Shown here: in pieces, positions 35,421-63,718 of the stretch
Position numbering within the stretch: the stretch's first letter is position 1
Layout of the letters: each line of letters opens with the position of its first letter
Source of the DNA: Trujillonella endophytica
GTDB lineage: Bacteria; Actinomycetota; Actinomycetes; Mycobacteriales; Geodermatophilaceae
Reading direction: 5' to 3'
Assembly: GCF_900110555.1 (NCBI RefSeq)
Contig: NZ_FOEE01000017.1
Span: forward strand, 1 to 64,000
Length of the DNA: 64,000 nt
Position numbers and translations under genes: made by a program
Notes under the pieces: generated by a model
The model's database searches: none
What the model was told of the DNA's origin: nothing
What the model saw: only the letters and a program-made list of their open reading frames with translations

Positions 35421-36506
35421 TCACTCGTCGACCGTCCAGGTGTCCCGCCCGCGCAGCACCGCCTGCAGGTCCGGTCCGCCCGCGCGCTGCGCCGCCTCGC
35501 GGGCCTCGCCCACCTGTGCCCGCACCGCGTCGTCGTAGGTCGTGCGCCGCACGTCCCGGAAGACGCCGGTCACCGTGTGCGTGAGGTCCTGGTCCGACAG
35601 CCGCGACAGCGCGAACGCCAGGTGGACGTCGGTGACGTCGTGCACGACCACGTCCGCGGGGTCGACGTCGGCGGCCTCGGCGACGGCCAGCCCGAATCCC
35701 GCGCGGACGACGACGGAGGTGCCCAGCCCGTCCTCGCCCTTCGGACCGAACCGGATCGGCTCCCCGTGGGTGAGCGGGATCAGCCGCTGCGGGGCGGTGT
35801 CGGGCCGGCGCAGCACGTCGAAGGACCCGTCGTTGAAGATCGGGCAGTCCTGGAAGATCTCCACCAGCGCGGTGCCGCGGTGCGCCGCGGCGGCGGCCAG
35901 GACCGCGGTCAGGCCCTTGCGGTCGGAGTCGATCGCGCGGCCGACGAACGTCGCCTCGGCACCGAGGGCCAGCGACACCGGGTTGAACGGATGGTCGACC
36001 GAGCCCATCGGCGAGGACTTGGTGACCTTCCCCGTCTCGCTGGTGGGGGAGTACTGGCCCTTGGTCAGCCCGTAGATCCGGTTGTTGAACAGCAGGATCT
36101 TCAGGTTGATGTTGCGGCGCAGGGCGTGGATGAGGTGGTTGCCGCCGATCGACAGCGCGTCGCCGTCGCCGGTCACCACCCACACCGACAGGTCCGGCCG
36201 CGCCACCGCCAGGCCGGTGGCGATCGCCGGCGCCCGGCCGTGGATGGAGTGCATGCCGAAGGTGTCCATGTAGTACGGGAACCGGGACGAGCACCCGATC
36301 CCCGACACGAAGACGGTGTTCTCCCGCTTGATGCCCAGCGTCGGCATGAAGGAGCGGACGGCGGCCAGCACGGCGTAGTCCCCGCACCCGGGGCACCAGC
36401 GCACCTCCTGGTCGGAGGTGAAGTCCTTGGCCGTCTGCGGGGCCTCGGCCGCGGGGACGAGGTCCAGCCCGCCGAGGCCGGGCATGCCCAGGTCGATCAT
36501 GGTCAC
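35421..36506 (-). CDS. korB: 2-oxoacid:ferredoxin oxidoreductase subunit beta (361 aa)
   Basis: Thiamine-diphosphate subunit: EVRWCPGCGDYAVLAAVRS with the Fe-S/ThDP Cys residues, VSGIGCSSRFPYYMDTFGMH, ThDP/Mg motif VTGDGDALSIGGNHLIHALR, and NNRIYGLTKGQYSPTS. With KorA it oxidatively decarboxylates 2-oxoglutarate or another 2-oxoacid to the acyl-CoA, reducing ferredoxin. GTG 36506 overlaps the korA stop (GTGA) with GGGAG seven bases before; ATG 36500 is possible. Ferredoxins encoded at 49585 and 52864 could be partners. Confidence 0.93.
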   Translation of the reverse strand: MTMIDLGMPGLGGLDLVPAAEAPQTAKDFTSDQEVRWCPGCGDYAVLAAVRSFMPTLGIKRENTVFVSGIGCSSRFPYYMDTFGMHSIHGRAPAIATGLAVARPDLSVWVVTGDGDALSIGGNHLIHALRRNINLKILLFNNRIYGLTKGQYSPTSETGKVTKSSPMGSVDHPFNPVSLALGAEATFVGRAIDSDRKGLTAVLAAAAAHRGTALVEIFQDCPIFNDGSFDVLRRPDTAPQRLIPLTHGEPIRFGPKGEDGLGTSVVVRAGFGLAVAEAADVDPADVVVHDVTDVHLAFALSRLSDQDLTHTVTGVFRDVRRTTYDDAVRAQVGEAREAAQRAGGPDLQAVLRGRDTWTVDE

Positions 36507-38425
36507 CGCTGGGCTCCCGGGAGGTGGGTGAGGAAGACGTCCTGCAGTTCCTCGGCCTTGAACGGCTGGCCCGACACCTTGGTGTGGCTCTGCACGTCGA
36601 CGAGATAGCGGGAGCGCAGCAGCGAGGCGAGTTGCCCGAGGTTCATCTCGGGCACGAGCACCGCGCGGTAGCGGGCGAGCACCTCGCCGAGGTTGGCCGG
36701 GAACGGGTTGAGGTGGCGCAGGTGCGCGGTGGCCACGGGCAGGCCCCGCGCCCGAACGCGGCGGGCGGCGGCGCCGATCGGGCCGTAGGTCGAGCCCCAG
36801 CCGAGCACCAGCAGCCCGGCGTCCCCGGTCGGGTCGTCCACCTCGAGGTCGGGCACCTCGATGCCGGCGATCTTCGCCGCCCGCAGGTGGACCATCCGCT
36901 CGTGGTTGGCCGGGTCGTAGGAGATCGAGCCGGAGCCGTCGGCCTTCTCCAGGCCACCGATGCGGTGCTCCAGTCCGGCCGTGCCGGGGACGGCCCAGGG
37001 GCGGGCGAGGGTCTCCGGGTCGCGGAGGTAGGGCCAGAAGGCGCCCGACCCGTCCGGCGCGTTGGGCTCGGTCGCGAACGCGGGGTCCACGGTCGGCAGC
37101 TGCGCGACGTCGGGCACCTGCCACGGCTCGGACCCGTTGGCCAGGGCGCCGTCGGACAGCAGGATCACCGGCGTCCGGTAGGTGACCGCGATGCGGACGG
37201 CGTCCAGGACGGCAGCGAAGCAGTCGCCGGGCGTCTGTGGCGCGATGACCGGGACCGGGGACTCGCCGTTGCGGCCGTGCAGCGCCTGCAGCAGGTCGGC
37301 CTGCTCGGTCTTGGTCGGCAGCCCGGTCGAGGGGCCGCCGCGCTGCACGTCGATGACCAGCAGCGGCAGCTCCAGGGCCACGGCGAGGCCGATGGTCTCC
37401 GCCTTGAGGGCAATGCCCGGCCCGGACGTCGTCGTCACGCCGAGCGCGCCCCCGAAGGAGGCGCCCAGCGCGGCCCCGACGCCGGCGATCTCGTCCTCGG
37501 CCTGCACCGTCGTCACGCCGAAGGCCTTATGCCGGGAGACCTCGTGGAGGATGTCGGTCGCCGGGGTGATCGGGTACGTGCCCAGCAGCACCTCGAGCCC
37601 GGTGACGTGCGGAGCGGCCACGATGCCGTAGGCCAGCGCCGTGTTGCCGGTGATCTGGCGGTAGGTGCCGGCCGGCAGCTTCGCCTTCGCGACCTCGTAG
37701 ACGACCGCGAAGGCCTCGGTGGTCTCGCCGTAGGCGTGCCCGGCCCGGAACGCCAGGATGTTGGCCTCGGCCAGCTCGGGGCGCTTGGCAAACTTCTCCC
37801 GCAGGAAGCGCTCGGTGCCCTCCTGCGGCCGGGAGTACATCCACGACAGCAGGCCGAGGGCGAACATGTTCTTCGCCCGCTCGGCGTCACGCTTGGGGAG
37901 GCCGGTGGACTCCAGGGCGCCGCGGGTGAGCGTGGCCATGGCGATCCGGTGCACCTGGAAGTCGGCGAGCGAGTCGTCCTCGAGCGGATCGGCCGCGTAC
38001 CCGACCTTGGTGAGGTTGCGCGGGGTGAACTCGTCGGTGTTGACGATGACGATGCCGCCGCGCGGCAGGTCGCCGATGTTGGCGCGCAGGGCCGCAGGGT
38101 TCATCGCCACCAGGACGTCGGGCCGGTCGCCGGGGGTGAGGATGTCGAAGTCGGCGAAGTGCACCTGGAAGGACGAGACGCCGGGCAGGGTGCCGGCGGG
38201 TGCGCGGATCTCGGCCGGGAAGTTCGGCAGCGTCGACAGGTCGTTGCCGAAGCTGGCGGTCTCGGAGGTGAACCGGTCGCCGGTGAGCTGCATGCCGTCG
38301 CCGGAGTCGCCGGCGAAGCGGATGACGACGCGGTCGCGTCGCACCACGGTCGGGCGGCGCGTGCCGTCGGAGGCGCTCCCGGCCGGCGTCGTCGTGTCGG
38401 GGGACGTCGTGTCGGTGGACGTCAT
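36503..38425 (-). CDS. korA: 2-oxoacid:ferredoxin oxidoreductase subunit alpha (gamma-alpha fusion, 640 aa)
   Basis: Residues about 30-210 are the gamma domain (VIRFAGDSGDGMQLTGDRFT, FPAEIRAPAGTLPGVSSFQ). About 230-470 is the pyrimidine-type domain (TGNTALAYGIVAA, TYPITPATDILHEVSRHK, QAEDEIAGVGAALGASFGG, VQRGGPSTGLPTKTEQADLL). The C-terminal part contains VLGWGSTYGPIGAAARR and ends HLPGAQR. This is the actinobacterial KorA layout. ATG 38425 begins a Thr/Asp-rich tail; the ribosome site is weak. The promoter region is shared with the acyl-CoA dehydrogenase operon on the other strand. Confidence 0.93.
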   Translation of the reverse strand: MTSTDTTSPDTTTPAGSASDGTRRPTVVRRDRVVIRFAGDSGDGMQLTGDRFTSETASFGNDLSTLPNFPAEIRAPAGTLPGVSSFQVHFADFDILTPGDRPDVLVAMNPAALRANIGDLPRGGIVIVNTDEFTPRNLTKVGYAADPLEDDSLADFQVHRIAMATLTRGALESTGLPKRDAERAKNMFALGLLSWMYSRPQEGTERFLREKFAKRPELAEANILAFRAGHAYGETTEAFAVVYEVAKAKLPAGTYRQITGNTALAYGIVAAPHVTGLEVLLGTYPITPATDILHEVSRHKAFGVTTVQAEDEIAGVGAALGASFGGALGVTTTSGPGIALKAETIGLAVALELPLLVIDVQRGGPSTGLPTKTEQADLLQALHGRNGESPVPVIAPQTPGDCFAAVLDAVRIAVTYRTPVILLSDGALANGSEPWQVPDVAQLPTVDPAFATEPNAPDGSGAFWPYLRDPETLARPWAVPGTAGLEHRIGGLEKADGSGSISYDPANHERMVHLRAAKIAGIEVPDLEVDDPTGDAGLLVLGWGSTYGPIGAAARRVRARGLPVATAHLRHLNPFPANLGEVLARYRAVLVPEMNLGQLASLLRSRYLVDVQSHTKVSGQPFKAEELQDVFLTHLPGAQR

Positions 38426-38684: not shown

Positions 38685-39815
38685 GTGGAGCTCGAGCTCA
38701 CGGCCGATCAGAAGCTCTTCCAGTCATCGGCCAGGTCACTGCTCGAGAAGGACCACTCGCTCGACCGGCTGCGCCGGCTCGAGCCGGGTGAGTCCGCGTG
38801 GGACCGCGACTCGTGGCAGCGCGGCGCCGAGCTGGGCTGGGCGGCGACGATCGTTCCCGAGGAGCTCGGCGGCGGCAGCGTCTCCGGCGAGGGGGTGCGC
38901 GACCTGACCCTCCTCGCCGAGGAGCTCGGCTCCGTCGTCGCCCCGGGGCCGTTCCTGCCCGTCAACGTCGTGCTCGCCGGCCTGGTCGCCGCGCACGGCA
39001 CCGGTCCCGACCACACCGCCACCATCGAGGCGCTCGTCGCCGGCGAGCAGGTGGCCGCGTGGGCGGTGTACGAGCCCGGTGGCCACTGGGCCCCCGAGGC
39101 GGCCCACGTCGCGGCCTCGCCGACCGCCGACGGCTGGCGGCTCGACGGCACCAAGGACCGCGTCGAGGCCGGGCTCCAGGCCGACCTGCTGCTGGTCACC
39201 GCGACCACCCCCGAGGGGCTCGCGCAGTTCCTCGTGCCGACCTCCGCCGAGGGCGTGACCACCTCGCCGCAGTGGGCGCTGGACCTGTCCCGCCCGCTCG
39301 CCGAGGTCCGCCTCGACGGCGTCGTCGTCGGCCCGGACGCGGTCGTCGGCACGCCGGCCACCACGGCCGAGATCGTGGAGAAGCAGCTGCAGATCGCGCT
39401 GCTCGTCCAGTGCGCCGAGCTGTGCGGCGGCCTGGAGAAGATGTTCGCCCTGACGATGCAGTGGGGCTTCGACCGCTACTCCTTCGGGCGCCCGCTGGCC
39501 TCCTACCAGGCCCTCAAGCACCGCTACGCGGACATGCGCACCTGGCTGGAGGCCTGCCACTCCACCACCCAGGCCGCGGCGGAGGCCGTCCAGGCGGGCT
39601 CGCCCGACGCGCCGCAGCTGGTCAGTGTCGCCAAGTCCTTCGTGGCCGAGCGCGCACAGTGGATCCTGCAGGACTGCGTGCAGCTGCACGGCGGGATCGG
39701 CGTGACCTGGGAGCACGATCTGCACCTGTACCTGCGCCGGGCGACGTCCGACCGTGCCCTGTACGGCACGCCGGAGGACCACCGCCGCCGGCTCGCCGAC
39801 CTCTCCTCTCTCTGA
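38685..39815 (+). CDS. acyl-CoA dehydrogenase (376 aa)
   Basis: Acyl-CoA dehydrogenase fold with N-terminal helices (LTADQKLFQSSARSLLEKDH), SFGRPLASYQALKHRYADM and QLHGGIGVTWEHDLHLYLRR. The middle beta domain is poorly conserved (no SEPxxGSD motif), typical of the beta-like partner in heteromeric enzymes. GTG 38685 follows GGAGA. The gene after it, 29 bases on, encodes an alpha-like partner; together they probably form one alpha-beta enzyme acting on a cyclic or side-chain acyl-CoA. Confidence 0.92.
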   Translation: MELELTADQKLFQSSARSLLEKDHSLDRLRRLEPGESAWDRDSWQRGAELGWAATIVPEELGGGSVSGEGVRDLTLLAEELGSVVAPGPFLPVNVVLAGLVAAHGTGPDHTATIEALVAGEQVAAWAVYEPGGHWAPEAAHVAASPTADGWRLDGTKDRVEAGLQADLLLVTATTPEGLAQFLVPTSAEGVTTSPQWALDLSRPLAEVRLDGVVVGPDAVVGTPATTAEIVEKQLQIALLVQCAELCGGLEKMFALTMQWGFDRYSFGRPLASYQALKHRYADMRTWLEACHSTTQAAAEAVQAGSPDAPQLVSVAKSFVAERAQWILQDCVQLHGGIGVTWEHDLHLYLRRATSDRALYGTPEDHRRRLADLSSL

Positions 39816-39844
39816 ACTCCCCGTCTGCGAAGGGCTGACCACCG

Positions 39845-41092
39845 ATGACGACTGCCGAGACGGAGACCGTCGAGTCGTTCCGCCTGCGTGCCCGCGCCTG
39901 GCTGGCGGAGAACATGCCGCGCCTGGACGCCGACGCGCCGCTGCCGACCCTGGGCGACGACGACCACGAGTGGGTGCGCGCGCGGGAGCTGCAGAAGCTG
40001 CTGCACGCCGGCGGCTTCGCGGGCATCTGCTTTCCCCGTGAGTACGGCGGCCTCGGCCTGAGCCCGGCCCACCAGCGTGCCTTCACCGAGGAGACCGCCG
40101 GCTACGAGATGCCGGTGCAGCTGAACATCCCGACGTTCAGCATCGTCGCCGCCACCCTGCTCGACATGGGCAGCGAGGAGCAGAAGCGCGAGCGCATCTC
40201 GGCGGCCATCCGCGGGGACGAGGTGCTCTGCCAGTTCCTGTCCGAGCCCAGCGGCGGCTCGGACCTGGCCGGCCTGCTCACCCGGGCCGAGCTCGACGGC
40301 GACACCTGGATCCTCAACGGCCAGAAGACGTGGAGCACCTCGGCGTACGCCGCCGACTGGGGGCTGTGCCTGGCGCGCACCAACTGGGACGTGCCCAAGC
40401 ACCGCGGCCTGACCATGTTCCTGATACCCACCGAGGCCCCGGGCCTGCACATGAACCGGGTCAAGATGGTCAACGGCTCCCGCGAGTTCTGCGAGGAGTT
40501 CTTCACCGACGTCCAGCTGCCCGCCTCGGCCGTCGTCGGCGAGGTCAACAACGGCTGGGCCGTCGCCTCCCGGCAGCTGTTCCACGAGCGCAACGCCGTC
40601 GGTGGCGGATCGCCGTACGTCAGCGGCATCGCCGGCCGTCCGCGCGCCCTCGGCGGCCAGTCGCTGTTCACCGTCGCCCGCGCGACCGGCCGCGCGGCCG
40701 AGCCCGGGGTCCGGGAGCGGGTGGGGGAGTGGGTGGCGCTGGAGGCCGTCAAGAACCAGATGGTCTCCCGGGTCAGCCGGGCCATCGGCAGCGGCGCCCT
40801 GCCGCCGCCGGCCGCCTCGCTGCTGCGCCTGTTCCACGCCGAGGCCGCCCAGCGGGGCACCGACCTGGCGATGGACATCGCCGGCGCGCAGATCGCCGCG
40901 GGCGTCGGCACCGACGAGGGCGTCACGGGCCGCGCCGGTGTCTCCTACCTCAGCCGCCAGGGGGCCAGCCTGGGCGGCGGCAGCAGCGAGATGGCGCGCA
41001 ACCAGATCAGCGAGCGCCTGCTCGGCATGCCGCGCGAGCCCGCCGCCGATCGGGACATCCCGTTCAACCAGGTCAAGCGGGGCCGGGTGTGA
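39845..41092 (+). CDS. acyl-CoA dehydrogenase (415 aa)
   Basis: Full-length enzyme: FPREYGGLGLSPAHQRAFTEE, QFLSEPSGGSDLAGLLTRAE (FAD motif), DTWILNGQKTWSTSAYAADW and a C-terminal QGASLGGGSSEMARNQISE that replaces the common GGTNEI helix. This resembles alpha-like partners of FadE heteromers. The N-terminus carries an extra helix. It lies in an operon between the partner dehydrogenase and the acyl-CoA synthetase. Confidence 0.92.
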   Translation: MTTAETETVESFRLRARAWLAENMPRLDADAPLPTLGDDDHEWVRARELQKLLHAGGFAGICFPREYGGLGLSPAHQRAFTEETAGYEMPVQLNIPTFSIVAATLLDMGSEEQKRERISAAIRGDEVLCQFLSEPSGGSDLAGLLTRAELDGDTWILNGQKTWSTSAYAADWGLCLARTNWDVPKHRGLTMFLIPTEAPGLHMNRVKMVNGSREFCEEFFTDVQLPASAVVGEVNNGWAVASRQLFHERNAVGGGSPYVSGIAGRPRALGGQSLFTVARATGRAAEPGVRERVGEWVALEAVKNQMVSRVSRAIGSGALPPPAASLLRLFHAEAAQRGTDLAMDIAGAQIAAGVGTDEGVTGRAGVSYLSRQGASLGGGSSEMARNQISERLLGMPREPAADRDIPFNQVKRGRV

Positions 41093-41147: not shown

Positions 41148-42647
41148 ATGAACCTCGCGATGATCCTCGACATGGTCGCCGACGGGATGGCCGACCGTGT
41201 CCTCATCGGCAACAAGGAGGACGGCCTCACCGGGGCCACGCTGCGGGCCAAGGCCTCCGCCGGCGCCGCGCACGTGGCCTCCCTCGGTGCCGACCGCCTC
41301 GTCTACCTCGGCCCCAACGGCTCCGGGTTCCCCGTGGCGCTGTTCGCCGCGACGCTCGCGGGCGTGCCGTTCCTCCCGCTGAACTACCGCCTCGGCGAGG
41401 AGCAGCTCGGCGAGATCATGAGCCGGCAGACCGCGCCGCTGGTCGTGACCGACACCCCCGAGCGGGTCCCGGGCTCGCGCACCATCGGCATCGCGGAGTT
41501 CGCCTCGCTGCCGGCCGTCGACGCCGCGCCGCTGCAGGCGTACGAGATCGAGTCCGAGTCGGTCGCCGTCCTGCTGATGACCAGTGGCACCACGGCGGCG
41601 CCCAAGAGCGCCGTGCTGCGGCACAGCAACCTGACGGCCTACCTCTTCGGCTCGGTGGAGTTCGCCTCGGTCGAGGAGACGGACGCGACGCTGGTCAGCG
41701 TCCCGCCTTACCACATCGCGGCGGTGGCCAACTGCCTGTCCAACCTGTACGCCGGCCGGCGGGTGGTCTACCTCGACGTCTTCAGCCCGGGCGAGTGGCT
41801 GGACGTCGTGGAGAAGCAGGGCATCACCCATGCCATGGTCGTGCCGACGATGCTCTCGCGCATCGTCGCCGAGCTCGAGACGCGGGGGACCGAGGGTCCG
41901 GCGTCGCTGCGCTCGGTGTCCTACGGTGGCGCCAAGATCGCCGCGGAGGTCATCGAGCGGGCCCTGCAGCTGTTCCCCGCGACGGGCTTCGTCAACGCCT
42001 ACGGCCTGACCGAGACCGCGTCGTCGATCGCCGTCCTCGGCCCCGACGACCACCGCGAGGCCGTCGCGTCCGAGGACCCCGCCGTGCGCGCCCGGCTGGG
42101 TTCGGTGGGCCGCGCCCTGCCCTCGGTGGAGATCGAGGTGCACGACGACGAGGGCACCGTGTGCGCGCCCGGCGTGGTCGGCGACATCGTCGTCCGGGGC
42201 CCGCAGGTCGCGGGGGAGTACCTCGAGCAGGGCAGCAAGGTGCAGTCCGACGGCTGGTTCCCGACCCGGGACCGCGGCTACGTCGACGACGCCGGGTTCA
42301 TCTTCGTCCGCGGCCGTTCGGACGACACGATCATCCGCGGCGGCGAGAACATCGCCCCGGCCGAGATCGAGGACGTCCTCGGCCGGCACCCGGCGGTACT
42401 CGAGGCGGTCGTCGCGGGCGTGCCCGACGTCGAGTGGGGCCAGGTCATCGGCGCCTTCGTGCAGCTGCGTCCCGACGCGCAGGCGACCGAGGACGAGGTG
42501 CGGCAGTGGGTCCGCGAGCGGCTGCGCGGCTCGAAGACCCCCGACCGGGTGGTCTTCGTCGAGGAGTTCCCGACGACCCCCACCGGCAAGGTGGTCCGGC
42601 GCGAGCTCGTGGCGCTCGTGACCCAGCCCAGCGCGCAGCCCGCCTGA
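41148..42647 (+). CDS. class I adenylate-forming acyl-CoA synthetase (499 aa)
   Basis: AMP-binding enzyme: P-loop VLLMTSGTTAAPKSAVLRHS, motif NAYGLTETAS, hinge RDRGYVDDAGFIFVRGRSDD with IIRGGENIAPAEIEDVL, and catalytic Lys in PTTPTGKVVRREL. It activates a carboxylic acid to its CoA thioester; the substrate pocket cannot be read. ATG 41148 has CGGAG seven bases ahead. Last gene of the unit beginning at 38685; a hairpin follows. Confidence 0.93.
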   Translation: MNLAMILDMVADGMADRVLIGNKEDGLTGATLRAKASAGAAHVASLGADRLVYLGPNGSGFPVALFAATLAGVPFLPLNYRLGEEQLGEIMSRQTAPLVVTDTPERVPGSRTIGIAEFASLPAVDAAPLQAYEIESESVAVLLMTSGTTAAPKSAVLRHSNLTAYLFGSVEFASVEETDATLVSVPPYHIAAVANCLSNLYAGRRVVYLDVFSPGEWLDVVEKQGITHAMVVPTMLSRIVAELETRGTEGPASLRSVSYGGAKIAAEVIERALQLFPATGFVNAYGLTETASSIAVLGPDDHREAVASEDPAVRARLGSVGRALPSVEIEVHDDEGTVCAPGVVGDIVVRGPQVAGEYLEQGSKVQSDGWFPTRDRGYVDDAGFIFVRGRSDDTIIRGGENIAPAEIEDVLGRHPAVLEAVVAGVPDVEWGQVIGAFVQLRPDAQATEDEVRQWVRERLRGSKTPDRVVFVEEFPTTPTGKVVRRELVALVTQPSAQPA

Positions 42648-42917: not shown

Positions 42918-42975
42918 CCAGCCGGCCGCATCGTGCCGTGTGGTTCCCCCTGTCGAGAAGCTGAGGTTGCATCGC

Positions 42976-44202: not shown

Positions 44203-45050
44203 GCGGGACGACCCCCACCCCGCCGACGACGGACCGGGTCGGCTTCATCGGCCTGGGCAGCCAGGGCGGTCCGATGGCCCGCCGCATCGTCGAGGACGGC
44301 GTCGCGACGGTCCTGTGGGCCCGCCGGCAGGAGACGCTCGACGCCTACGCCGACACCGCCGCCGAGTACGCCTCGTCCCCGGCGGACCTCGCGGCGCGCG
44401 TGGACATCGCGTGCGTGTGCGTGCTGAACGACGAGGGCGTGGAGGAGGTCGTCGCCGGGCCCGAGGGGCTGCTGTCGGCGATGGCCCCCGGCGGCGTCAT
44501 CGCCATCCACAGCACCGTGCACCCGGAGACCTGCCAGCGGCTGGCCGAGCAGGCGGCGGCCAAGGGGATCACCCTCATCGACGCCCCGGTCAGCGGTGGT
44601 GGCCCGGGTGCCGAGGCCAAGCGCCTGCTGGTCATGGTCGGGGGGGACGCCGAGACGCTGGAGCGGGTCCGTCCCGTCTTCGAGACCTACGCCAACCCGA
44701 TCGTCCACCTCGGCCCGGTGGGCGCCGGCCAGCGCGCGAAGCTGATCAACAACCTGATGCTGACCGCCAACCTCGGGGTCCTGGAGAGCGCCTACGCCCT
44801 GGCGCGGTCGCTCTCGGTCGACCCGGAGCAGCTGAGCACCGTGCTCAGCCACGGCAGCGGCAACAGCTTCGCGGTCAACGTGCTGCGCGGGCCGGACTTC
44901 GTGCTCGGCCCGATGGGTGCCATGGCGGGCCCGCTGCTGCAGAAGGACGCGCGGCTCGTCGTCGACCTGGCGACGGCCGCCGGCGCCGAGCCCGGCACCG
45001 TCCTGACCGCCGCGGACGCCGCCCTGTCCTCCATGGGCTGCCAGCGGTGA
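44199..45050 (+). CDS. NAD(P)-dependent beta-hydroxyacid dehydrogenase, HIBADH family, copy 1 (283 aa)
   Basis: 6-phosphogluconate/3-hydroxyisobutyrate dehydrogenase fold: Rossmann VGFIGLGSQGGPMARRIVED, substrate loop LIDAPVSGGGPGAEAKRLLV, and GPVGAGQRAKLINNLMLTAN with the catalytic Lys, then an all-helical C-terminus. It oxidises a beta-hydroxyacid or reduces the semialdehyde or imine counterpart. GTG start overlaps the CoA-transferase stop; a hairpin follows the gene. A second member lies at 46303. Confidence 0.9.
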   Translation: MSGTTPTPPTTDRVGFIGLGSQGGPMARRIVEDGVATVLWARRQETLDAYADTAAEYASSPADLAARVDIACVCVLNDEGVEEVVAGPEGLLSAMAPGGVIAIHSTVHPETCQRLAEQAAAKGITLIDAPVSGGGPGAEAKRLLVMVGGDAETLERVRPVFETYANPIVHLGPVGAGQRAKLINNLMLTANLGVLESAYALARSLSVDPEQLSTVLSHGSGNSFAVNVLRGPDFVLGPMGAMAGPLLQKDARLVVDLATAAGAEPGTVLTAADAALSSMGCQR

Positions 45051-49565: not shown

Positions 49566-49584
49566 GACGCTGAGGAGCACCCAG

Positions 49585-56610: not shown

Positions 56611-56919
56611 ATGAAGCTCAAGGTCGGACAGACGCTGACCAGTGCGGTCGACGCGACGTCGCTGGTGGTCGTGCGGGCGCCGGAGGGCGACGTGGACGTG
56701 ACCTGTGGTGGCGCGCCGATGACCGCGCCGGGGGAGACCGCGGCCGCCGGTGCCACCGCGGAGGGCGAGGCCGGCAACGGCGTCCTCATGGGCAAGCGCT
56801 ACGCGGACGAGGCCCTGGGCCTCGAGCTGCTGTGCGTGAAGCCCGGCGACTACGCCGTCGCCGTGAACGGCACGCAGCTGGCGCAGAAGAGCGCCCAGCC
56901 GCTGCCCGCCTCGGACTGA
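56611..56919 (+). CDS. small conserved hypothetical protein (102 aa)
   Basis: Begins MKLKVGQTLTSAVDATSLVV and continues with RAPEGDVDVTCGGAPM, an Ala/Thr/Gly linker, then GVLMGKRYADEALGLELLCV and SAQPLPASD. Predicted beta-rich and cytosolic; two Cys (TCGGA and LLCVK) could bind metal or form a disulfide. I recall similar short proteins near actinobacterial catabolic P450 clusters but know no function. ATG 56611 has GAGGAG six bases ahead. Located between ALDH 2 and DoxX, so it may belong to the same pathway. Confidence 0.75.
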   Translation: MKLKVGQTLTSAVDATSLVVVRAPEGDVDVTCGGAPMTAPGETAAAGATAEGEAGNGVLMGKRYADEALGLELLCVKPGDYAVAVNGTQLAQKSAQPLPASD

Positions 56920-57055: not shown

Positions 57056-57589
57056 GTGGCCCGGAAGGCACGGACAGACACGGGCAGCTCGGGCGTCGGC
57101 GTGGCCCGGTTCCTGCTGCGCACCGCGGTGGGCGGCACCATGATCGCCCACGGCGTGAAGCACGGCCGCTCGCTCAAGGGAACCGCCGGCTGGTTCGGCT
57201 CCATCGGCTTCAAGCAGCCGATGCTGCAGGCACGGACCAGCGCCGTCGTGGAGATCGGGTCCGGTGCCGCGCTGATCGCGGGTGCGGCCACCCCGCTCGC
57301 GGCGTCCGCGGTCGTCGGCACCCTCGCCGTCGCCGCGCGGTCGGTGCACATCCCCAACGGCTTCTTCATCAACGCCGAGGGCTGGGAGTACGTCGCCAAC
57401 CTCTCGGTCGCCTCGGTCGCGCTGGCGGCGCTGGGCCCCGGCGGCTGGAGCGTGGACCGCGCCCTGGGCACCGACCGGTTCTCCGGCCCGCGGGCCGCGC
57501 TGTTCGTCGCGGGCCTCGGCCTCGGCGGCGCGGCGGCCCAGCTGGCCACCTTCTGGACCAAGCCGGCGCCGAAGCCCGTCGCGGGCTGA
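57056..57589 (+). CDS. DoxX family membrane protein (177 aa)
   Basis: Four hydrophobic segments: FLLRTAVGGTMIAHGVKHGR, the block around SAALIAGAATPLAASAVVGTLA-like residues 65-95, VASVALAALGPGG, and AALFVAGLGLGGAAAQLAT. The DoxX motif GWFGSIGFKQPMLQARTSAV is clear. DoxX proteins are thiol- or quinone-linked membrane redox proteins; the electron partner is unknown. GTG start after AGAAGGGAGA; 12 bases before the ferredoxin reductase gene, which suggests a shared redox task. Confidence 0.85.
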   Translation: MARKARTDTGSSGVGVARFLLRTAVGGTMIAHGVKHGRSLKGTAGWFGSIGFKQPMLQARTSAVVEIGSGAALIAGAATPLAASAVVGTLAVAARSVHIPNGFFINAEGWEYVANLSVASVALAALGPGGWSVDRALGTDRFSGPRAALFVAGLGLGGAAAQLATFWTKPAPKPVAG

Positions 57590-57601: not shown

Positions 57602-58816
57602 GTGAGCCAGATCCCGGAGCACGTCGTCGTCGTCGGTGCGGGGCTGGGCGGTCTGCGGACCGTCGAGCAGCTGCGTTCCCGCGGCCACACCGGGCGCATC
57701 ACCCTCATCGGCGCCGAGGTGCACCCGCCCTACGACCGGCCGCCGCTGTCCAAGCAGATCCTCAACGGCACCTGGGAGCCGGCCAAGGCCACGTTCCGGG
57801 ACCTCGAGGGGCTGGCCGAGCTCGACGTCACCACGGTCTTCGGCAAGCGCGCCGTCGGCCTCGACGGCACCACCGTGCAGCTCGAGGACGGCACCGCGGT
57901 GAGCGGCGACGTCGTCGTCCTGGCGACCGGCGTCACCGCGCGCACCCTTCCCGGGCAGCCGGCCGGGGTCGTCACCCTGCGGACGCTCGACGACGCGATC
58001 GCCCTGCGCGGGGCCTTCGACTCGCTGTCGTCGCTGCTCATCGTGGGCGCCGGCTTCATCGGTGCCGAGGTCGCCTGCGCGGCCCACGCCCGCGGGGTGC
58101 AGGTGACCGTGCTCGAGGCGCTCCCCGTTCCGGTCGAGCGGGCGCTCGGGCGTGAGGTCGGCGCGCTGGCCGCCCGCCTGTTCACCGAGGGCGGCATCGA
58201 CCTGCGCTGCGACACGCGGATCACCCGCTTCGTGGACGAGCGCACGGTCGAGCTCTCCGACGGGTCGACCCTCGGCGCGGACCTGGTGCTGGTCGGCATC
58301 GGGTCGCTGCCGGACGTGGACTGGCTGGCGTCGTCGGGCTTCGACACGACGAACGGGGTCGCCTGCGACGCCTCCGGACGGGTCGTCGGCACCAGCGGGG
58401 TGTGGGCCCTCGGGGACATCGCCTCCTGGTGGGACGAGTCCCGGGGCCGCCACCACCGCAACGAGCACTGGACCACGACGGTGGACCAGTCCTCCATCGT
58501 GGCCAGCGACATCCTCGGCACAGAGCCGCCCGCCGCCACGGTGCCGTACGTGTGGTCCGACCAGTTCGGCATGAAGGTGCAGACCTTCGGGCGCACCGAC
58601 CTCGCCGACGAGGTCGCCCAGCTGCACGGCACGGGGATGGACGGCGGTCCCGTGAAGGGCACCGTCGTCGGCTACTTCGCCGGTGGCGTGCTGGTCGGGG
58701 TCGTCGGCTTCGGCGCGCCGGCCAAGCTGGTGCGCTACCGCGCGATGATCGCCGAGGGGGCCGCCCGGGACGCCGTCCTGGCCCAGTCCGACGCCGGGTC
58801 CGCGGTCGGCGGCTGA
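57602..58816 (+). CDS. NAD(P)H-dependent ferredoxin/rubredoxin-type reductase (404 aa)
   Basis: Two-dinucleotide-fold flavoprotein: FAD motif VVVGAGLGGLRTVEQL, PPYDRPPLSKQILNGTWEP, NAD motif LIVGAGFIGAEVACAAHA, second FAD motif VWALGDIASWWDE, and a C-terminal reductase domain (VWSDQFGMKVQTFGRTD). It matches P450-system ferredoxin reductases, so P450s, ferredoxins and reductase are all in this region, giving a complete class I chain. GTG start. Confidence 0.94.
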   Translation: MSQIPEHVVVVGAGLGGLRTVEQLRSRGHTGRITLIGAEVHPPYDRPPLSKQILNGTWEPAKATFRDLEGLAELDVTTVFGKRAVGLDGTTVQLEDGTAVSGDVVVLATGVTARTLPGQPAGVVTLRTLDDAIALRGAFDSLSSLLIVGAGFIGAEVACAAHARGVQVTVLEALPVPVERALGREVGALAARLFTEGGIDLRCDTRITRFVDERTVELSDGSTLGADLVLVGIGSLPDVDWLASSGFDTTNGVACDASGRVVGTSGVWALGDIASWWDESRGRHHRNEHWTTTVDQSSIVASDILGTEPPAATVPYVWSDQFGMKVQTFGRTDLADEVAQLHGTGMDGGPVKGTVVGYFAGGVLVGVVGFGAPAKLVRYRAMIAEGAARDAVLAQSDAGSAVGG

Positions 58817-58946: not shown

Positions 58947-59759
58947 ATGACCGCGAACAGGCTCGCCGGCAAGGTCGCGCTCATCACGGGCGCGGCCCGT
59001 GGCCAGGGCCGGGCGGAGGCCGTCCGGCTGGCCGCCGAGGGCGCCGACATCATCGCCCTGGACAACTGCGTCACCGCCGGGACCACCGACTACGCCGGTC
59101 CGACCGAGGAGGACCTGGCCGAGACCGTGAAGCTGGTCGAGGCGCAGGACCGGCGGATCCTGGCCCGCAAGGCCGACATCCGGGACTTCGCGGCGCTGCA
59201 GGCGCTGGTGAAGGACGGCGTGGAGGAGTTCGGCCGGCTCGACGTGGTGGTGGCCAACGCCGGCATCTGCTCGGGCAACTGGTCGTGGGAGATCCCGGTC
59301 GAGCAGTGGCAGGAGACCATCGACGTCAACCTGACCGGCACCTTCTACACGATGAAGGCCACCATCCCGACGCTGATCGAGCAGGGCACCGGCGGGTCGA
59401 TCATCATCACCAGCTCGGTCGCCGGGCTGCGCGGGCACCCGTTCCTGGCCCACTACGCGGCCAGCAAGCACGGCGTCGTCGGCATGGCGAAGTCCATGGC
59501 CGTCGAGCTCGGGCAGTACAACATCCGGGTCAACACGATCCACCCGCACGGCGTCGCGACCGGGATGCAGCCCGGGCGGATGGGCGAGCTCATCGTGGAG
59601 AACGCCGCCACCCTCGGGCCGATCTTCATGCAGACCCTGCCCGACCCCATCTCGCAGCCGGAGGACATCGCGGCCGTGGTCGCCTTCCTCGCCTCCGACG
59701 ACTCCCACCACATGACCGGCGTCCAGCTGCCGGTCGACCTGGGCACGCTGCTGCGCTGA
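58947..59759 (+). CDS. mycofactocin-coupled SDR family oxidoreductase (270 aa)
   Basis: Second SDR of the mycofactocin-associated type: VALITGAARGQGRAEAVRLA, the post-strand-2 insert (DNCVTAGTTDYAGPTEEDLA), VVVANAGICSGNW, IIITSSVAGLRG and catalytic HYAASKHG (Tyr-x3-Lys). Similar in layout to the SDR at 48705 but only moderately so in the active-site loops, suggesting a second alcohol step. ATG 58947 has AGGAG seven bases ahead; the 21 upstream codons of the frame are non-coding. Confidence 0.92.
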   Translation: MTANRLAGKVALITGAARGQGRAEAVRLAAEGADIIALDNCVTAGTTDYAGPTEEDLAETVKLVEAQDRRILARKADIRDFAALQALVKDGVEEFGRLDVVVANAGICSGNWSWEIPVEQWQETIDVNLTGTFYTMKATIPTLIEQGTGGSIIITSSVAGLRGHPFLAHYAASKHGVVGMAKSMAVELGQYNIRVNTIHPHGVATGMQPGRMGELIVENAATLGPIFMQTLPDPISQPEDIAAVVAFLASDDSHHMTGVQLPVDLGTLLR

Positions 59760-59828: not shown

Positions 59829-60275
59829 CTAGACCCCCGGGTGGAGCCGGACGCGGGCGGTGCCGGGCGCGGTCTTCGCGCCCGTCTGGTTCTCCGACCA
59901 CAGGTCCAGCTCGAGGACGGTGCTGCCGTCGTCGGCCGTGGTCCGCCCGGTCACGGTGCCGGTGATCGTGATCCGGTCGCCCTTGAGCGCCGGGGACTTG
60001 AAGCGGCACTCGAGGTGCTCGAGCAGGCCGCGGTCGCCGACCCACTGCTCGACGGCGCAGTGCATCCACGCCCAGATCAGGTTGCCCATGCCGAAGGCGC
60101 CGGGCATGCCGGCGGCCTTGCCGGCCTCGTCGTCCATGTGGATGTCGACGAACTCGTAGTTGACCGCGGCGTAGCGGTTCCAGGCGTGCAGCCCGGCCTG
60201 CCGGACGAACGGCGGGACGGTGGCGCCCACCTCGAACTCTCCCGCGGTGGCGGCCGGGGTCTGGACGTCGGTCAT
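59829..60275 (-). CDS. MaoC-fold (hot-dog) hydratase subunit (148 aa)
   Basis: Single hot-dog domain with the hydratase signature YEFVDIHMDDEAGKAAGMPG (Asp-x4-His-type dyad in DIHMD) and GMGNLIWAWM. The C-terminal strands follow in KGDRITITGTVTGRT. Likely the catalytic half of a heteromeric enoyl-CoA hydratase with the next gene, as ChsH1-ChsH2 in steroid degradation. ATG 60275 has GGGAGA ahead and is 26 bases after the partner gene. Confidence 0.9.
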   Translation of the reverse strand: MTDVQTPAATAGEFEVGATVPPFVRQAGLHAWNRYAAVNYEFVDIHMDDEAGKAAGMPGAFGMGNLIWAWMHCAVEQWVGDRGLLEHLECRFKSPALKGDRITITGTVTGRTTADDGSTVLELDLWSENQTGAKTAPGTARVRLHPGV

Positions 60276-60301
60276 CGGATCTCCCTGGCTGGTTCGGCGG
60301 G

Positions 60302-60829
60302 TCAGTAGCGGATCAGGGACATGGTGGCGGTCTTGATCCGCTCGCCGTCCTGGTTGGTCCACGTCGTCGCGGTGTCGGTGACGAGCATGGCGCCCAGCCG
60401 GCTCTCCTTCTCCTGGTACCGGGCGATGACCGTCTCCGAGCGGATGACGTCCCCGGGCCGGATGCGGACGCCGGTGTAGTCGACGACCAGGCCGCCGTTG
60501 AGGGCCCGGAACAGGTCGGGCGGCTGGACGCCGAGGTTCTGCTCCATGGCGCCGACCGCCTTGTACTTCGGGTCGACCTCGAAGGCCTTCGCGTTGGGCT
60601 CGGTGCGGGCCGCGGCCCAGGCGAAGACGCTGATGTCGAGGGGGGCGACGAGGGTGCCCGCGGCCTCGGCGCCGGGGTCCAGGTAGTGCGCCGGCGGGGC
60701 CTCCGGGTAGTACACGGCGATGGCCCAGCGCCGGATGTCCGATGCGGTCACCGGATAGGAGACGGTGACGCCGTAGGGCTGCCCCACGATCGCCGCCATG
60801 TCCGGCCGGACCAGTCCCAGCTCGCTCAT
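60302..60829 (-). CDS. MaoC-like N-terminal domain protein (175 aa)
   Basis: Hot-dog protein of the MaoC_dehydrat_N/FAS1-like group: VTASDIRRWAIAVYYPEAPP, an Ala-rich middle (PLDISVFAWAAARTEPNAKA), then VDYTGVRIRPGDVIRSETVI and TTWTNQDGERI. No catalytic dyad is evident, so it should be the non-catalytic partner of the MaoC protein downstream. ATG 60829 follows an AGAGGTGAG site. On the minus strand a TATGTT at 60881-60876 may be the -10 box. Confidence 0.88.
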   Translation of the reverse strand: MSELGLVRPDMAAIVGQPYGVTVSYPVTASDIRRWAIAVYYPEAPPAHYLDPGAEAAGTLVAPLDISVFAWAAARTEPNAKAFEVDPKYKAVGAMEQNLGVQPPDLFRALNGGLVVDYTGVRIRPGDVIRSETVIARYQEKESRLGAMLVTDTATTWTNQDGERIKTATMSLIRY

Positions 60830-60922: not shown

Positions 60923-62335
60923 TCAGCCCTCGGTCGCGTGGGCGGTCCGTCCGGCCAGGACGACGGCCCGTACCCGCTCCGCCGAGGGGGTGTCGAGCAC
61001 GTCGGCGGGGCTCCCGTCGAGGAGTACGAGATCCGCGGGGACCCCGGGCGCCACGGCGCGGGGCGGCCCGCCGGGGGAGTCGGGCGGGCCCAGGTAGGCG
61101 GCCAGCGCGGCGGCCGGGCCCAGCCGCTCCGCGGCACCGACGACGGCGCCCGCGCGGGTCCGCCGGCCGACCGCGGCGGCGAGCACGCGCCAGGGGTCGA
61201 GGGGCCCGTGCGGGGCGTCGCTGGACAGCGCCACCGGTACGCCGCACGCGAGCAGGCTGGCCGCGCGGTACAGGTCGTCGTGCTCGTCGGCGGGGACGTC
61301 GCGCAGGTAGTCGTCGCCCCGGTCGGCCAGGAACCCCGGCTGGGTGACCACCCGCAGCCCCCGGCGGGCGAGGTCGGCCACAACCGCCCCGGGGACCAGT
61401 GCGGCGTGCTCGACGCGGTCACCCGGGCGGACGCCGGCGAGGTCGAGCGCGGCCAGGAGCAGGGCCAGGGCCTCGCGGGTGACGACGTGCACCGCCACCG
61501 CGCGCCCGGCGGCGTGCGCGGCGCGGATGCGGGCGACGAGCGGATCGAGGTCGGGCAGCCCCGAGTCGGCCAGGACGATCTTGACCGGCCCGGCGGTGAG
61601 CCCGGCGGGCAGGGCGCCGTCCAGGGGCGCGCCCAGGAGGGTGACCCCCTGGGGCAGCACGCCGTCGCGCCGCGCGGCCGCCAGCGCCGCCACGGCCGCC
61701 GGGGCGAGGTCCGGGGTCGCGTCGGTGACCGCCGTGATGCCGAACCGGGTGAGCTCGCCCCCGACGGTGGTGAGGTCCGGCAGCCGGGCGGGGCCCAGGC
61801 GCTCGCGCAGCCAGTCGTCGGCGCGCCACAACCGCCCGGTCGGCCGCCCGGATGCGTCCCGTTCCACGCCGGGATGGTCGGCCGAGGCGAGCCCCAGGGC
61901 CGCGGCGCCGGCGGAGTTCACCACCCACAGGGCGCCGCTGCGGTGCTGCACCCGGACCGGCCGCTCGGCGTGCAGCCGGTCCAGGGCGGCGGAGTCCAGG
62001 TCGCCGGCGACGGTCTCGGCGTAGCCGGTGCCCCGGATCCACCCGTCCTCGCCCGGCCCCGCCGCCGCCAGCGCCCGCCGCAACAGGCCGGCGTCGGTCA
62101 CCGCGGGCGGGCCGGACGGCACCGAGCGGGCCGCCGCGGCCATCGCGTGCAGGTGCAGGTGGGCGTCGACCAGGCCGGGCAGCAGTGTGCCCCCCCGGCC
62201 GGGCAGCACCTCCTCGGTGGTCCGGTGCAGGGCCGGGCCCACCTCGACGACCCGGACGCCACCGACCCGGACGTCGACCCGCCGGCCGTCGAGCAGGACG
62301 ACGTCCCGGAACAGCAGCCCGCTCACGGGGCTCAT
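60923..62335 (-). CDS. amidohydrolase family protein, YtcJ-like (470 aa)
   Basis: Composite-barrel amidohydrolase: LLFRDVVLLDGRRVDVRVGG beta-sandwich, metal pair LPGLVDAHLHLHAMA, VAVHVVTREALALLLAALDL, DRVEHAALVPGAVVADL (His), and LSSDAPHGPLDPWRVLAAAV (Asp). The C-terminus returns to the sandwich (PADLVLLDGSPADVLDTPSA). Family members hydrolyse cyclic amides, lactones or act as isomerases; the substrate is unknown. ATG 62335 has GGGAG six bases ahead, inside an 83-bp repeat; a 28-codon upstream ORF ends on this start codon. Confidence 0.88.
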   Translation of the reverse strand: MSPVSGLLFRDVVLLDGRRVDVRVGGVRVVEVGPALHRTTEEVLPGRGGTLLPGLVDAHLHLHAMAAAARSVPSGPPAVTDAGLLRRALAAAGPGEDGWIRGTGYAETVAGDLDSAALDRLHAERPVRVQHRSGALWVVNSAGAAALGLASADHPGVERDASGRPTGRLWRADDWLRERLGPARLPDLTTVGGELTRFGITAVTDATPDLAPAAVAALAAARRDGVLPQGVTLLGAPLDGALPAGLTAGPVKIVLADSGLPDLDPLVARIRAAHAAGRAVAVHVVTREALALLLAALDLAGVRPGDRVEHAALVPGAVVADLARRGLRVVTQPGFLADRGDDYLRDVPADEHDDLYRAASLLACGVPVALSSDAPHGPLDPWRVLAAAVGRRTRAGAVVGAAERLGPAAALAAYLGPPDSPGGPPRAVAPGVPADLVLLDGSPADVLDTPSAERVRAVVLAGRTAHATEG

Positions 62336-62418
62336 GGTTCGCTCCCGCGCGGCGCTCCGCTCCTCGCTCGCTGGCGCTCGCTGCGATGCTCACGCCGCTG
62401 TCCGCTCACGGGCTTCAT
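62332..62418 (-). CDS. upstream ORF created by repeat duplication (28 aa)
   Basis: The second repeat copy supplies its own GGGAG site and ATG (62418). The frame runs through repeat copy 1 as an Arg/Ser/Glu-rich peptide starting MKPVSGQRREH, and its TGA overlaps the ATG of the amidohydrolase gene (ATGA). It probably has no protein function but would couple translation. Confidence 0.35.
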   Translation of the reverse strand: MKPVSGQRREHRSERQRARSGAPRGSEP

Positions 62419-62498
62419 GGTTCGCTCCCGCGCGGCGCTCCGCTCCTCGCTCGCCGGCGCTCGCTGCGATGCTCACGCCGCTGTCCGCTCACGGGGCC
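62333..62498. repeat. 83-bp tandem direct repeat, two copies
   Basis: Copy 1 is 62333-62415 and copy 2 is 62416-62498. The units match throughout apart from one T/C difference in the interior and small changes at the CATGG/CACGGGG junctions. Each begins with CATGGTTCGCTCCCG on the plus strand, that is, a GGGAG site and ATG on the minus strand. Purine/pyrimidine asymmetry is strong (GAGCGAGGAGCGGAGCG on the minus strand). It fills the space between the CoA-transferase stop and the amidohydrolase start. Confidence 0.9.
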
Positions 62499-63718
62499 CC
62501 GATGCCCAGCTCGGCGAGGACCGCCGCAGTGTCCGCACCGGCCTGGGGAGCGACCCCGGGCACCGTGCGCCGCCGCGGGGGCGCCACCGGGACGGCGCCG
62601 TCGGCGGTGTCGACCACCCAGCGCTCGCCCTCCCGGCGGGCCGCGGGGGACGGGCCGTCCGGGACGCCGACGAGGGTGGCCGCGACGACGTCGGTCATCG
62701 AGACGTCCCGGAGGACACCGGGCCCGTCCGGCGACGCGGTCATCGCCAGCGCGGCGACGGTGAGGCCGGTCAGCGGATCGGCGATCGCGTCGCCGACGAA
62801 CAGCGGGGACCCCTCGGCGTCCCGGGCGACCAGCCCGGCGCAGGCCGCGACGTCGTCCCCGAAGCCGATCCGGCCCGAGGCCCGGCCCCCCGCGGTCAGC
62901 GAGATCCAGGTGGTGCCCGCGGCGACCGCCGCCTCGGCGTCCAGCCCGAAGCCCGCCAGCGCGCGCGGCCGGGACGCCTCGATCACCACGTCGGCCGCCG
63001 CGACGAGGGCGCCCAGCGCCGCCCGCCCCCGCGGCTCGCCCGGGTCGAGCAGCACGGAGCGGTGCCCCGCGTGCAGGAGGCGGTAGAAGTCGGGGTCGCC
63101 GCGGCGGGCGCCGTCCGGCCGGTCGGGGACCTCGACCTTCACGACCCGGGCCCCGGCGAGGCCGAGCAGGGACGCGGCCAGCGGGCCGGCCCAGAGAGCG
63201 CTGAAGTCCACGACGAGCAGGTCCTCGACCGGCCGCGGCGACCCGGCGGGGAGCGAGGGAGGGGGTGCGGCGGGGGGGCGGACCGGGCCCGCGGGCACGC
63301 CGAGCAGTTCGGCACGCGCGGCCAGTTCCTCGCCCGGGTGCGCGTGGACCCAGGCCGCGACGGCGGGCCACGGATCGGCGGGCAGCTCCCGGCCGACCAG
63401 CGCGCCGAGCAGCAGGGGGTCGTCCGGGCGGGCGCAGGAGACGGCGGCCCAGCCGTCGAGCGTGGGCAGGAGGCGGCAGCTTCCGCCCGCCGAGACCCGC
63501 CCGGCGCGCCGGTGGCCGGTGAACGCCGCGCGCTCGGCGAGGAGGGCCGCGCCGTCGAGCACGACGGGGTGGGCGGTGCCGGCCGTGGCAGCCGCGATGC
63601 GGTCGGTCAGCTCCCGGGCGACCGTGGCGGCCCGGCCGGGCGGCACCAGGGGTGGGCCGTCGGGTGCGCCGGTGAGGGCGACGACCCCGCTGGCGGCCCA
63701 GTCGGTCGGCTCGGGCAC
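62489..63718 (-). CDS. CaiB/BaiF-type CoA transferase family protein (409 aa)
   Basis: The C-terminal two thirds match a family III CoA transferase: LLVVDFSALWAGPLAASLLG, ARVVKVEVPDRPDGARRGDP, DVVIEASRPRALAGFGLDAE, TTWISLTAGGRASG and ASPDGPGVLRDVSMTDVVA. The N-terminal about 150 residues look like the other half of such a domain in swapped order, with a short linker APPPSLPAGSPRP. This layout occurs in steroid/terpenoid-associated CoA transferases. GTG 63718 is fixed by GGAGGAGG five bases ahead. Divergent from mftD. Confidence 0.88.
   Translation of the reverse strand: MPEPTDWAASGVVALTGAPDGPPLVPPGRAATVARELTDRIAAATAGTAHPVVLDGAALLAERAAFTGHRRAGRVSAGGSCRLLPTLDGWAAVSCARPDDPLLLGALVGRELPADPWPAVAAWVHAHPGEELAARAELLGVPAGPVRPPAAPPPSLPAGSPRPVEDLLVVDFSALWAGPLAASLLGLAGARVVKVEVPDRPDGARRGDPDFYRLLHAGHRSVLLDPGEPRGRAALGALVAAADVVIEASRPRALAGFGLDAEAAVAAGTTWISLTAGGRASGRIGFGDDVAACAGLVARDAEGSPLFVGDAIADPLTGLTVAALAMTASPDGPGVLRDVSMTDVVAATLVGVPDGPSPAARREGERWVVDTADGAVPVAPPRRRTVPGVAPQAGADTAAVLAELGIGAP

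Follow-up and report, generated by a model that had tools for sequence, protein, structure and literature searches.

The first 64,000 nucleotides of contig NZ_FOEE01000017.1 from Trujillonella endophytica, the whole stretch analyzed here and called the window, belong to a 4.87-Mb genome and carry a dense group of catabolic genes. Genes were called across the window from codon-position composition and assigned to families with Pfam and NCBIfam scans, which covered many, but not all, of them. On the forward strand, two acyl-CoA dehydrogenase genes (ACAD1 and ACAD2, 38685-41092) are followed by genes for an AMP-forming acyl-CoA synthetase (FadD, 41148-42647), a family III CoA-transferase (CaiB1, 42940-44202), and two β-hydroxyacid dehydrogenases resembling 3-hydroxyisobutyrate dehydrogenase (HIBADH), namely HIB1 (44199-45050, with SGG and KLINN motifs) and HIB2 (46303-47145, 36% identical to HIB1). 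Between these two lies AmH2 (45129-46256), a homologue of the PtmU3/DitZ-type amidohydrolase-related oxygenases in which Gln265 replaces a ligand Glu. The row continues with an Rv0768-like aldehyde dehydrogenase (ALDH; 47169-48671; 664 bits to TIGR04284, under the cut-off of 775), a mycofactocin-coupled short-chain dehydrogenase/reductase (SDR; 48705-49565), a small Fer4_15 ferredoxin (49558-49779) adjoining the tandem paralogues P450a (49805-51190, with heme-Cys, EFLR, and GGFDT motifs) and P450b (51348-52727, 77% identical to P450a), an FdxA ferredoxin (52864-53193, above the NF045480 cut-off), a fusion of DUF35 (OB-fold and Zn ribbon) with a thiolase fold (53275-54936; PF12172, PF01796, and PF22691), a dehydrogenase resembling succinate semialdehyde dehydrogenase (SSADH; 55048-56499), and hyp102 (56611-56919), an unnamed 102-amino-acid family. 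Farther along the same strand are a DoxX-family membrane protein (57101-57589), a flavin adenine dinucleotide (FAD) ferredoxin reductase (57602-58816), and a second mycofactocin-coupled SDR (58947-59759), and on the reverse strand lie the probable hydratase pair MaoCb and MaoCa (59829-60829) and AmH3 (Amidohydro_3) with a second family III CoA-transferase, CaiB2 (60923-63718). Gene calls and family scans thus recovered every gene listed in the original prediction, including those behind its proposal of P450- and mycofactocin-linked catabolism with CoA activation and β-oxidation; its heteromeric MaoC hydratase corresponds to two adjacent MaoC-type genes, whose products may form one heteromer.

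This region is a real, conserved catabolic cluster. Thirteen genes, in the order ACAD1-ACAD2-FadD-CaiB1-HIB1-HIB2-ALDH (Rv0768 type)-SDR-ferredoxin-P450-fusion-SSADH-hyp102, share both order and strand with their counterparts from Streptomyces sp. CB02414, Actinomadura craniellae, and Actinocorallia sp. API 0066, at 53 to 83% protein identity and with a few other genes interspersed. Thermocatellispora has the set rearranged but still within one region, as do two genomes from another family. Since this order persists across families and orders, the grouping is not due to chance. The loci of named genera come from a scan of named genomes with the fusion protein, which returned at least 523 relatives at E 1e-3 (distant ones included); 80 loci were kept and compared in gene order, five of them extended by about 19 to 20 kb on each side. 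Nine blocks, seven of them from outside Blastococcus, were compared gene by gene, some in stretches too short to reach the outer genes. CaiB1, HIB1, ALDH, SDR, ferredoxin, a P450, the fusion, and hyp102 are present in 9/9 blocks, and both ACAD genes in eight, the ninth stretch ending before them; SSADH is 72 to 83% identical in six of the seven non-Blastococcus blocks. G070 and G057 have both MaoC genes, as do three of the five other-genus blocks, whereas Streptomyces has MaoCa alone. For all 18 genes tested, comparison of the window with as many as three further Blastococcus genomes gave ratios of nonsynonymous to synonymous substitution rates (dN/dS) of 0.03 to 0.29. Most mycobacterial loci keep together chiefly a HIB1-HIB2-fusion core.

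The original prediction was right about the cluster but set its start, at 35421, too far downstream, since the conserved unit begins upstream of this position and the cluster spans at least 29.0 to 63.7 kb. The upstream members (29.0 to 35.2 kb) include an ArsR-type regulator (34885-35208, reverse strand), found in 7/9 blocks and 67 to 76% identical in six of the seven non-Blastococcus ones; VOC1, a two-domain glyoxalase-fold protein (29029-29964, reverse; PF00903), found in 6/9 blocks and 56 to 72% identical in six of the same seven; and an enoyl-CoA hydratase/isomerase family protein (33985-34782, reverse), with 73 to 82% identity in six of these blocks and 36% in the seventh. A LacI-type regulator (31819-32859, forward) has counterparts at the equivalent position of the Streptomyces, Actinomadura, and Actinocorallia loci (51 to 55%). 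A compact 317-amino-acid FAD-binding protein (33009-33962, forward; weak N-terminal FAD_binding_2 match) recurs in three non-Blastococcus blocks (36 to 43%), and in Actinomadura and Actinocorallia it stays beside the LacI and enoyl-CoA hydratase genes. The small protein hyp111 (30949-31284, reverse), adjoining VOC1, has no Pfam match of its own, and its counterpart position on Rhodococcus plasmid pYLL1 is annotated as DUF4286 family. Within the genus, 14 to 63.7 kb is collinear with the window in G001 and G002 (in the latter split over two contigs), which carries little weight.

Still farther upstream, an ATP-binding cassette (ABC) importer (16977-23791, mixed strands; Peripla_BP_6, BPD_transp_2, and ABC_tran) comprises two periplasmic binding proteins (16977-18191 and 18528-19745, both reverse), a permease with two BPD_transp_2 stretches (20158-22200, forward), and two ATPases (22197-23066 and 23063-23791, both forward). 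In G070, orthologues of the importer (52 to 74%) lie some 18 kb past the end of the corresponding cluster, and the related cluster on pYLL1 is flanked by a transporter with an identical layout (26 to 44%); for these reasons we count the importer as probably part of the cluster and likely its uptake system. It was not found in the five other-genus blocks within the stretches compared. Genes for a MoxR ATPase and a VWA-domain protein also lie near the cluster (25102-27123); such pairs often mature metalloenzymes. Annotated MoxR ATPase and VWA-domain genes lie inside the pYLL1 cluster as well (L175, 2103-5102), and a MoxR-like gene (28%) adjoins ACAD1 in G070.

Not every gene of the region shares this history. 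The 2-oxoacid:ferredoxin oxidoreductase genes KorB (35421-36506) and KorA (36503-38425), both on the reverse strand, had been counted with the set, but KorAB occurs in only 2/9 blocks (one block being too short to reach it), and the third Blastococcus, G002, carries it too. The host genome holds four KorA copies, the further KorAB copies lying at C20:116-3141, C20:133.6-136.6 kb, and C15:104.8-107.8 kb; among these, one on C20 stands beside P450 and SDR genes and one near two HIBADH-like genes. The C15 copy is probably a housekeeping one, since, from reading the sequences rather than from a library search, its neighbors resemble complex I genes. The window KorA is 74% identical to the two C20 copies and 69% to the C15 copy, whereas the copy beside the Streptomyces cluster shares 74% identity with the C15 copy but 70% with that of the window. 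KorAB therefore has the look of a duplicate that arose in the Blastococcus lineage and was placed at this site. We therefore rejected it as an ancestral pathway enzyme; that it feeds electrons to the ferredoxins is a guess.

A lineage-specific KorAB would also fit the view that several unrelated catabolic operons lie side by side here and do not form one pathway. In the same direction point G003 and G037, in which FadD, hyp102, and an AmH3-CaiB2 pair one gene from hyp102 stand together, the 20-kb stretch containing nothing that matches a P450 and the genomes lacking a fusion orthologue, as well as the five other-genus blocks in which a paralogue of 36 to 38% identity takes the place of AmH2. 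However, the P450-SDR-fusion and ACAD-FadD blocks stay within a single region in four further named genera and also in a second family, and we regard a chance neighborhood of operons as unlikely. The AmH3-CaiB2 pair itself is also found in the Streptomyces and Thermocatellispora blocks.

Full-length orthologues of the DUF35-thiolase fusion (E 1.7e-190 or better) are present in nine genomes of a set of 78 that includes the host, namely, three Blastococcus and six of other families in the order, and in none of the 43 other searched members of the host's family. The nearest named relatives listed are Blastococcus sp. URHD0036, Blastococcus sp. TF02A-26, B. endophyticus, and Blastococcus sp. CPCC 205250, and the host is accordingly treated here as a Blastococcus. 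The best structural match of the fusion is Ltp2 (6ok1 chain A, 9e-66), and the DUF35 part of ChsH2 was matched as well (chain B, 5e-24). Its thiolase domain has cysteines at positions 194, 272, 461, and 471, none of them inside GGETFGPGGS, which is the putative thiolase nucleophile loop. The Ltp2 of Thermomonospora curvata (TcLtp2) uses Tyr294 as base and Tyr344 as acid within a scheme featuring the YDHF motif, while Sal of Comamonas has YDCY and Gln352 at the Tyr344 position (PMC12329534). In the fusion, Tyr454 aligns with the catalytic base Tyr294 in an LYDGF motif and is invariant in 9/9 orthologues, Gly456 replaces the His of YDHF, and the Tyr344 position is taken by Arg505, again in all nine. 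The fusion thus resembles Ltp2-ChsH2 and Sal in its thiolase fold, DUF35 partner, and YDxF catalytic-base tyrosine, but differs in that DUF35 is fused to the aldolase, in YDGF instead of YDHF or YDCY, and in the Arg at the Tyr344 position. YDGF together with Arg505 is a third pattern beside those of Ltp2 and Sal. The Ltp2-type class tolerates change, as Sal also lacks Tyr344, and the fusion is probably a retro-aldolase with an altered active site.

Do these relatives make the region a cluster for steroid or bile acid side chains, with ring genes located elsewhere? The nearest relatives are indeed of the steroid type: Ltp2-ChsH2 for the fusion, the CYP125 ancestor (next to P450cin) among the closest solved relatives of P450a, and Tcur3481 (6wy8) for ACAD1. 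Steroid acyl-CoA dehydrogenases of the Tcur3481 type are heteromeric, and the window likewise has two adjacent ACAD genes, but ACAD1 matches Tcur3481 with only 101 bits, far under any equivalog cut-off. Moreover, steroid systems place DUF35 on the MaoC protein, as in ChsH2 and Shy, whereas here it is joined to the aldolase, apart from the MaoC genes; the catalytic motif of the fusion also departs from that of Ltp2. KstR-type boxes with three mismatches are more frequent across the window than expected (8 observed versus 1.7 expected, with 8 reached in 1/100 shuffles), yet none precedes an operon of the cluster. The likeness to steroid side-chain degradation without ring genes, as first proposed, holds for the aldolase fold, while for the ring genes a search confined to KshA, the 9α-hydroxylase of aerobic 9,10-seco steroid degradation (KshA_C, PF19298; KstD, HsaC, and IpdAB were not sought) gave no match in the host genome and exceeded the cut-off in 0/14 control genomes, leaving it without a positive control. 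Altogether, we consider a steroid or bile acid cluster improbable.

The most novel component is hyp102. Across 20 aligned sequences, GKRY is invariant and all end in an LP[AS]SD C terminus. The protein itself has no Pfam or NCBIfam match, and among 15 members only stray matches appear in one or two (E 0.009 or worse); PDB sequence matches all stand at E 0.58 or worse, and its predicted model, all-β with a mean predicted local distance difference test score (pLDDT) of 91, has no PDB neighbor at E 0.001. A partial Foldseek match to desulforedoxin (E 4.4) raised the idea of a two-Cys metal protein, which was dropped as the pYLL1 copy lacks both cysteines. Within the 78 genomes, hyp102 occurs in 12, and the cluster-type FadD (E 1e-100; weakest best match among the 12, 1.8e-145) occurs in the identical 12 and is absent from the same 66. 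The chance of drawing the identical subset is 2e-14, calculated as one over the number of subsets and ignoring relatedness. All nine fusion-bearing genomes have hyp102, versus 3/69 without the fusion (Fisher 1e-9). Presence was scored on the best-ranked candidates of each genome (up to 64 for hyp102 and 19 for FadD), so misses are possible; FadD thresholds were fixed before the presence tables were seen, on the basis of 50 to 62% identity against about 30% for other FadDs.

The same pairing appears on plasmids. Of 72,556 plasmid records, 18 carry hyp102, of which 17 also carry FadD at E 1e-120 and the eighteenth one at 46% identity; the two genes lie at most 115 bp apart on the same strand in 17/18 and 28 kb apart on opposite strands in the exception. 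These records are not all independent, some looking like near duplicates (DK17/DK180; R. erythropolis/R. qingshengii with equal identities), but their hosts, Rhodococcus, Streptomyces, Mycobacterium, Sphingobium, and Sphingomonas, belong to two phyla. A Streptomyces plasmid has mft genes near its FadD-hyp102-fusion cluster. In the window, hyp102 is 14 kb from FadD. The simplest reading of this linkage is that hyp102 would be a helper or subunit of the FadD ligase. MbtH, a helper of adenylation domains, offers a likeness in idea only, namely, that of a small protein in obligate partnership with an enzyme that adenylates; hyp102 differs in having no significant Pfam match and a predicted all-β fold. 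It is tempting to speculate, and we do so tentatively, that hyp102 might be an obligate, MbtH-like helper or subunit of a FadD clade for bulky cyclic acids, and that the pair might mark a class of undescribed terpenoid or alicyclic catabolic clusters, spread over Actinomycetota and Sphingomonadales, where the CoA-bound skeleton would be cut by DUF35-aldolases and by those PtmU3/DitZ-type oxygenases that are intact. None of the open-access PMC papers listed describes hyp102, and no search was aimed at this nameless family itself.

Taken together, gene content, conserved order, the mycofactocin link, the aldolase-like motif, and the FadD-hyp102 linkage, all directly observed, make it likely that the cluster is dedicated to breaking down a bulky, saturated compound of alicyclic or isoprenoid type. 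The mycofactocin link is borne by both SDRs, which exceed the TIGR03971 cut-off (344 and 361 versus 300 bits), and by the maturase MftC, the only mft gene sought, which lies outside the window (C27:46640; 653 bits, cut-off 265). Solved relatives of the first SDR bear the name carveol dehydrogenase. In the pathway that these genes suggest, the ABC importer would take up the substrate, and P450a and P450b would hydroxylate it with electrons from the ferredoxins and the FAD reductase. The SDRs may then oxidize the alcohol and the Rv0768-type ALDH the resulting aldehyde to an acid, which FadD, with hyp102 as its dedicated helper, could activate to a CoA ester, unless CaiB1 transfers the CoA instead. 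The ACAD pair would introduce an α,β double bond, MaoCa and MaoCb would hydrate it, and the fusion could cleave the C-C bond of the β-hydroxyacyl-CoA by a retro-aldol reaction into a ketone or aldehyde and a short acyl-CoA, the aldehyde passing to the SSADH-type enzyme. HIB1, HIB2, AmH2, AmH3, and CaiB2 would act at further steps, left unassigned in this scheme. The substrate is probably alicyclic or isoprenoid; terpenoid, alicyclic, branched, and other polycyclic acids are not separable by the analyses made.

Several observations weigh against this interpretation. The combination of Arg505 and Gly456 means that retro-aldolase activity of the fusion is not assured, and MaoCa has no solved relative at E 0.01. 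The Actinomadura physcomitrii block lacks HIB2, SSADH, and, within the stretch compared, both MaoC genes. The scanned window genes include neither a 3-hydroxyacyl-CoA dehydrogenase nor a thiolase that has the usual Cys, whereas the Streptomyces block has both; the Blastococcus set is therefore possibly incomplete, or other loci may share in its work. Some other-genus blocks add these two enzymes and a carboxyltransferase, the families having been tested on the copies from Streptomyces. The host genome contains numerous further P450/aldolase clusters, which blur the division of labor. The catabolic repertoire of this genome is rich, with 18 PtmU3/DitZ-type matches (E 6e-51 or better; one truncated at a contig end and one with an internal stop), 13 DUF35 genes, 31 P450 places (after dropping three second gene pieces from 34 matches), and 57 acyl-CoA dehydrogenase matches.

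AmH2 deserves separate consideration. Both expected amidohydrolase families were found (PF04909 and PF07969), but AmH2 belongs to the dinuclear-oxygenase branch. Among solved structures, it is closest to DitZ of Rhodococcus rhodochrous (4.6e-127; 8uyr, titled "Manganese-substituted DitZ from Rhodococcus rhodochrous") and PtmU3 (4.2e-59); PtmU3/DitZ-type structures fill Foldseek ranks 1 to 3 for its predicted model (mean pLDDT 86.6), with DitZ and PtmU3 first and a template modeling score of 0.91 to DitZ. No DitZ paper was found in the open-access PMC literature. PtmU3 is an amidohydrolase-related dinuclear oxygenase (PMC10811679), and the metal ligands of AibH2 are D25, H27, H211, E265, D337, and H340 (PMC7782822). 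In AmH2, these align with D12, H14, H213, Q265, D332, and H335, with D337 as a further acidic residue, so that five of the six ligands are kept. In a 12-sequence alignment, all ligands are retained in 7/7 other-genus homologues and one Blastococcus paralogue, whereas the four Blastococcus orthologues in it (window, L049, L050, and L051) and a fifth (L179, from G002) are each one ligand short (5/5): E265Q in three (window, L050, and L051) and H213N in two (L049 and the G002 copy). Despite this loss, dN/dS against the window gene is 0.18 to 0.27 in the three pairs compared. AmH2 thus shares its fold with PtmU3 (6omp), DitZ, AibH2, and SfbO, but the Blastococcus proteins differ from that group (PMC10811679, PMC7782822, and PMC10401708) by one replaced ligand and by the absence of any Rieske family among the scanned cluster genes; 90% of AibH2-like genes have an adjacent small Rieske protein (PMC10401708). 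The ligand loss weakens the case for a working oxygenase in Blastococcus, and because of it we claim no such activity for the window AmH2.

We also considered an oxygenase-aldolase module, in which an AmH2-like protein and a DUF35-aldolase would carry out O2-dependent β-hydroxylation and retro-aldol cleavage. In the host genome, 4/18 oxygenase-like matches start within 5 kb of the start of a DUF35 gene, compared with 6/31 P450 places and 7/57 acyl-CoA dehydrogenases (Fisher p 0.44 versus the dehydrogenases), which does not support a special association. On plasmids, the thiolase is also present on 18/25 oxygenase-bearing records; in three of the first four plasmid stretches compared, the oxygenase and thiolase genes adjoin each other or have one small gene between them, the exception being pYLL1. 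Other-genus blocks add a luciferase-like monooxygenase-type (LLM) flavin enzyme adjoining a DitZ-like oxygenase. The homology of AmH2 to PtmU3, which acts in platensimycin biosynthesis, could alternatively hint at a biosynthetic cluster for a terpenoid natural product. We regard this as very improbable, given that no terpene synthase or prenyltransferase appears among the families in the scanned window genes, not all called genes having been scanned, and that importer, β-oxidation, and aldolase genes suit breakdown.

A related catabolic cluster lies on plasmid pYLL1 of Rhodococcus sp. YL-1 (NZ_CP017303), an annotated record that names no substrate; it shares VOC, a MaoC pair, an ACAD pair (60 to 65%), adjacent FadD-hyp102, CaiB, DUF35 and thiolase, ALDH, a mycofactocin SDR, an AmH2-type sequence, the importer, and AmH3 with a CoA-transferase. 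It differs in that DUF35 and thiolase are separate genes (33 to 38% identity) and no P450 is listed in the stretch, for which the gene table is incomplete. The AmH2-type sequence (L175, about 18001-19127) is unannotated and matches in two pieces, with a second matching place elsewhere in the record, and may be broken.

Possible operator sites were noted by eye. A short AT-rich element recurs upstream of ArsR, both in the window (35209-35420) and at the corresponding gap of eight relatives, and Actinomadura and Actinocorallia have a TTGACA-type element resembling a promoter ahead of ACAD1. A search for common palindromes upstream of ten cluster genes gave none consistent across genera, and one palindrome seen in Actinomadura physcomitrii was not repeated at the equivalent position.

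As anticipated, no characterized cluster matched in synteny among open-access PMC papers, plasmid annotations, and PDB entries, as far as these sources reach. The enzyme kinds are known, but neither a description of the cluster nor the same gene combination was found among the open-access PMC papers listed, which leave out most subscription journals. The region thus provides a marker set, conserved over several genera, for an apparently unassigned pathway, with hyp102 as a new protein family, open to testing, that is linked to the activation of acyl-CoA, and the fusion as an aldolase-like enzyme with a changed catalytic motif. A substrate, once assigned, could apply to many genomes at once, the fusion having at least 523 relatives, distant ones among them.

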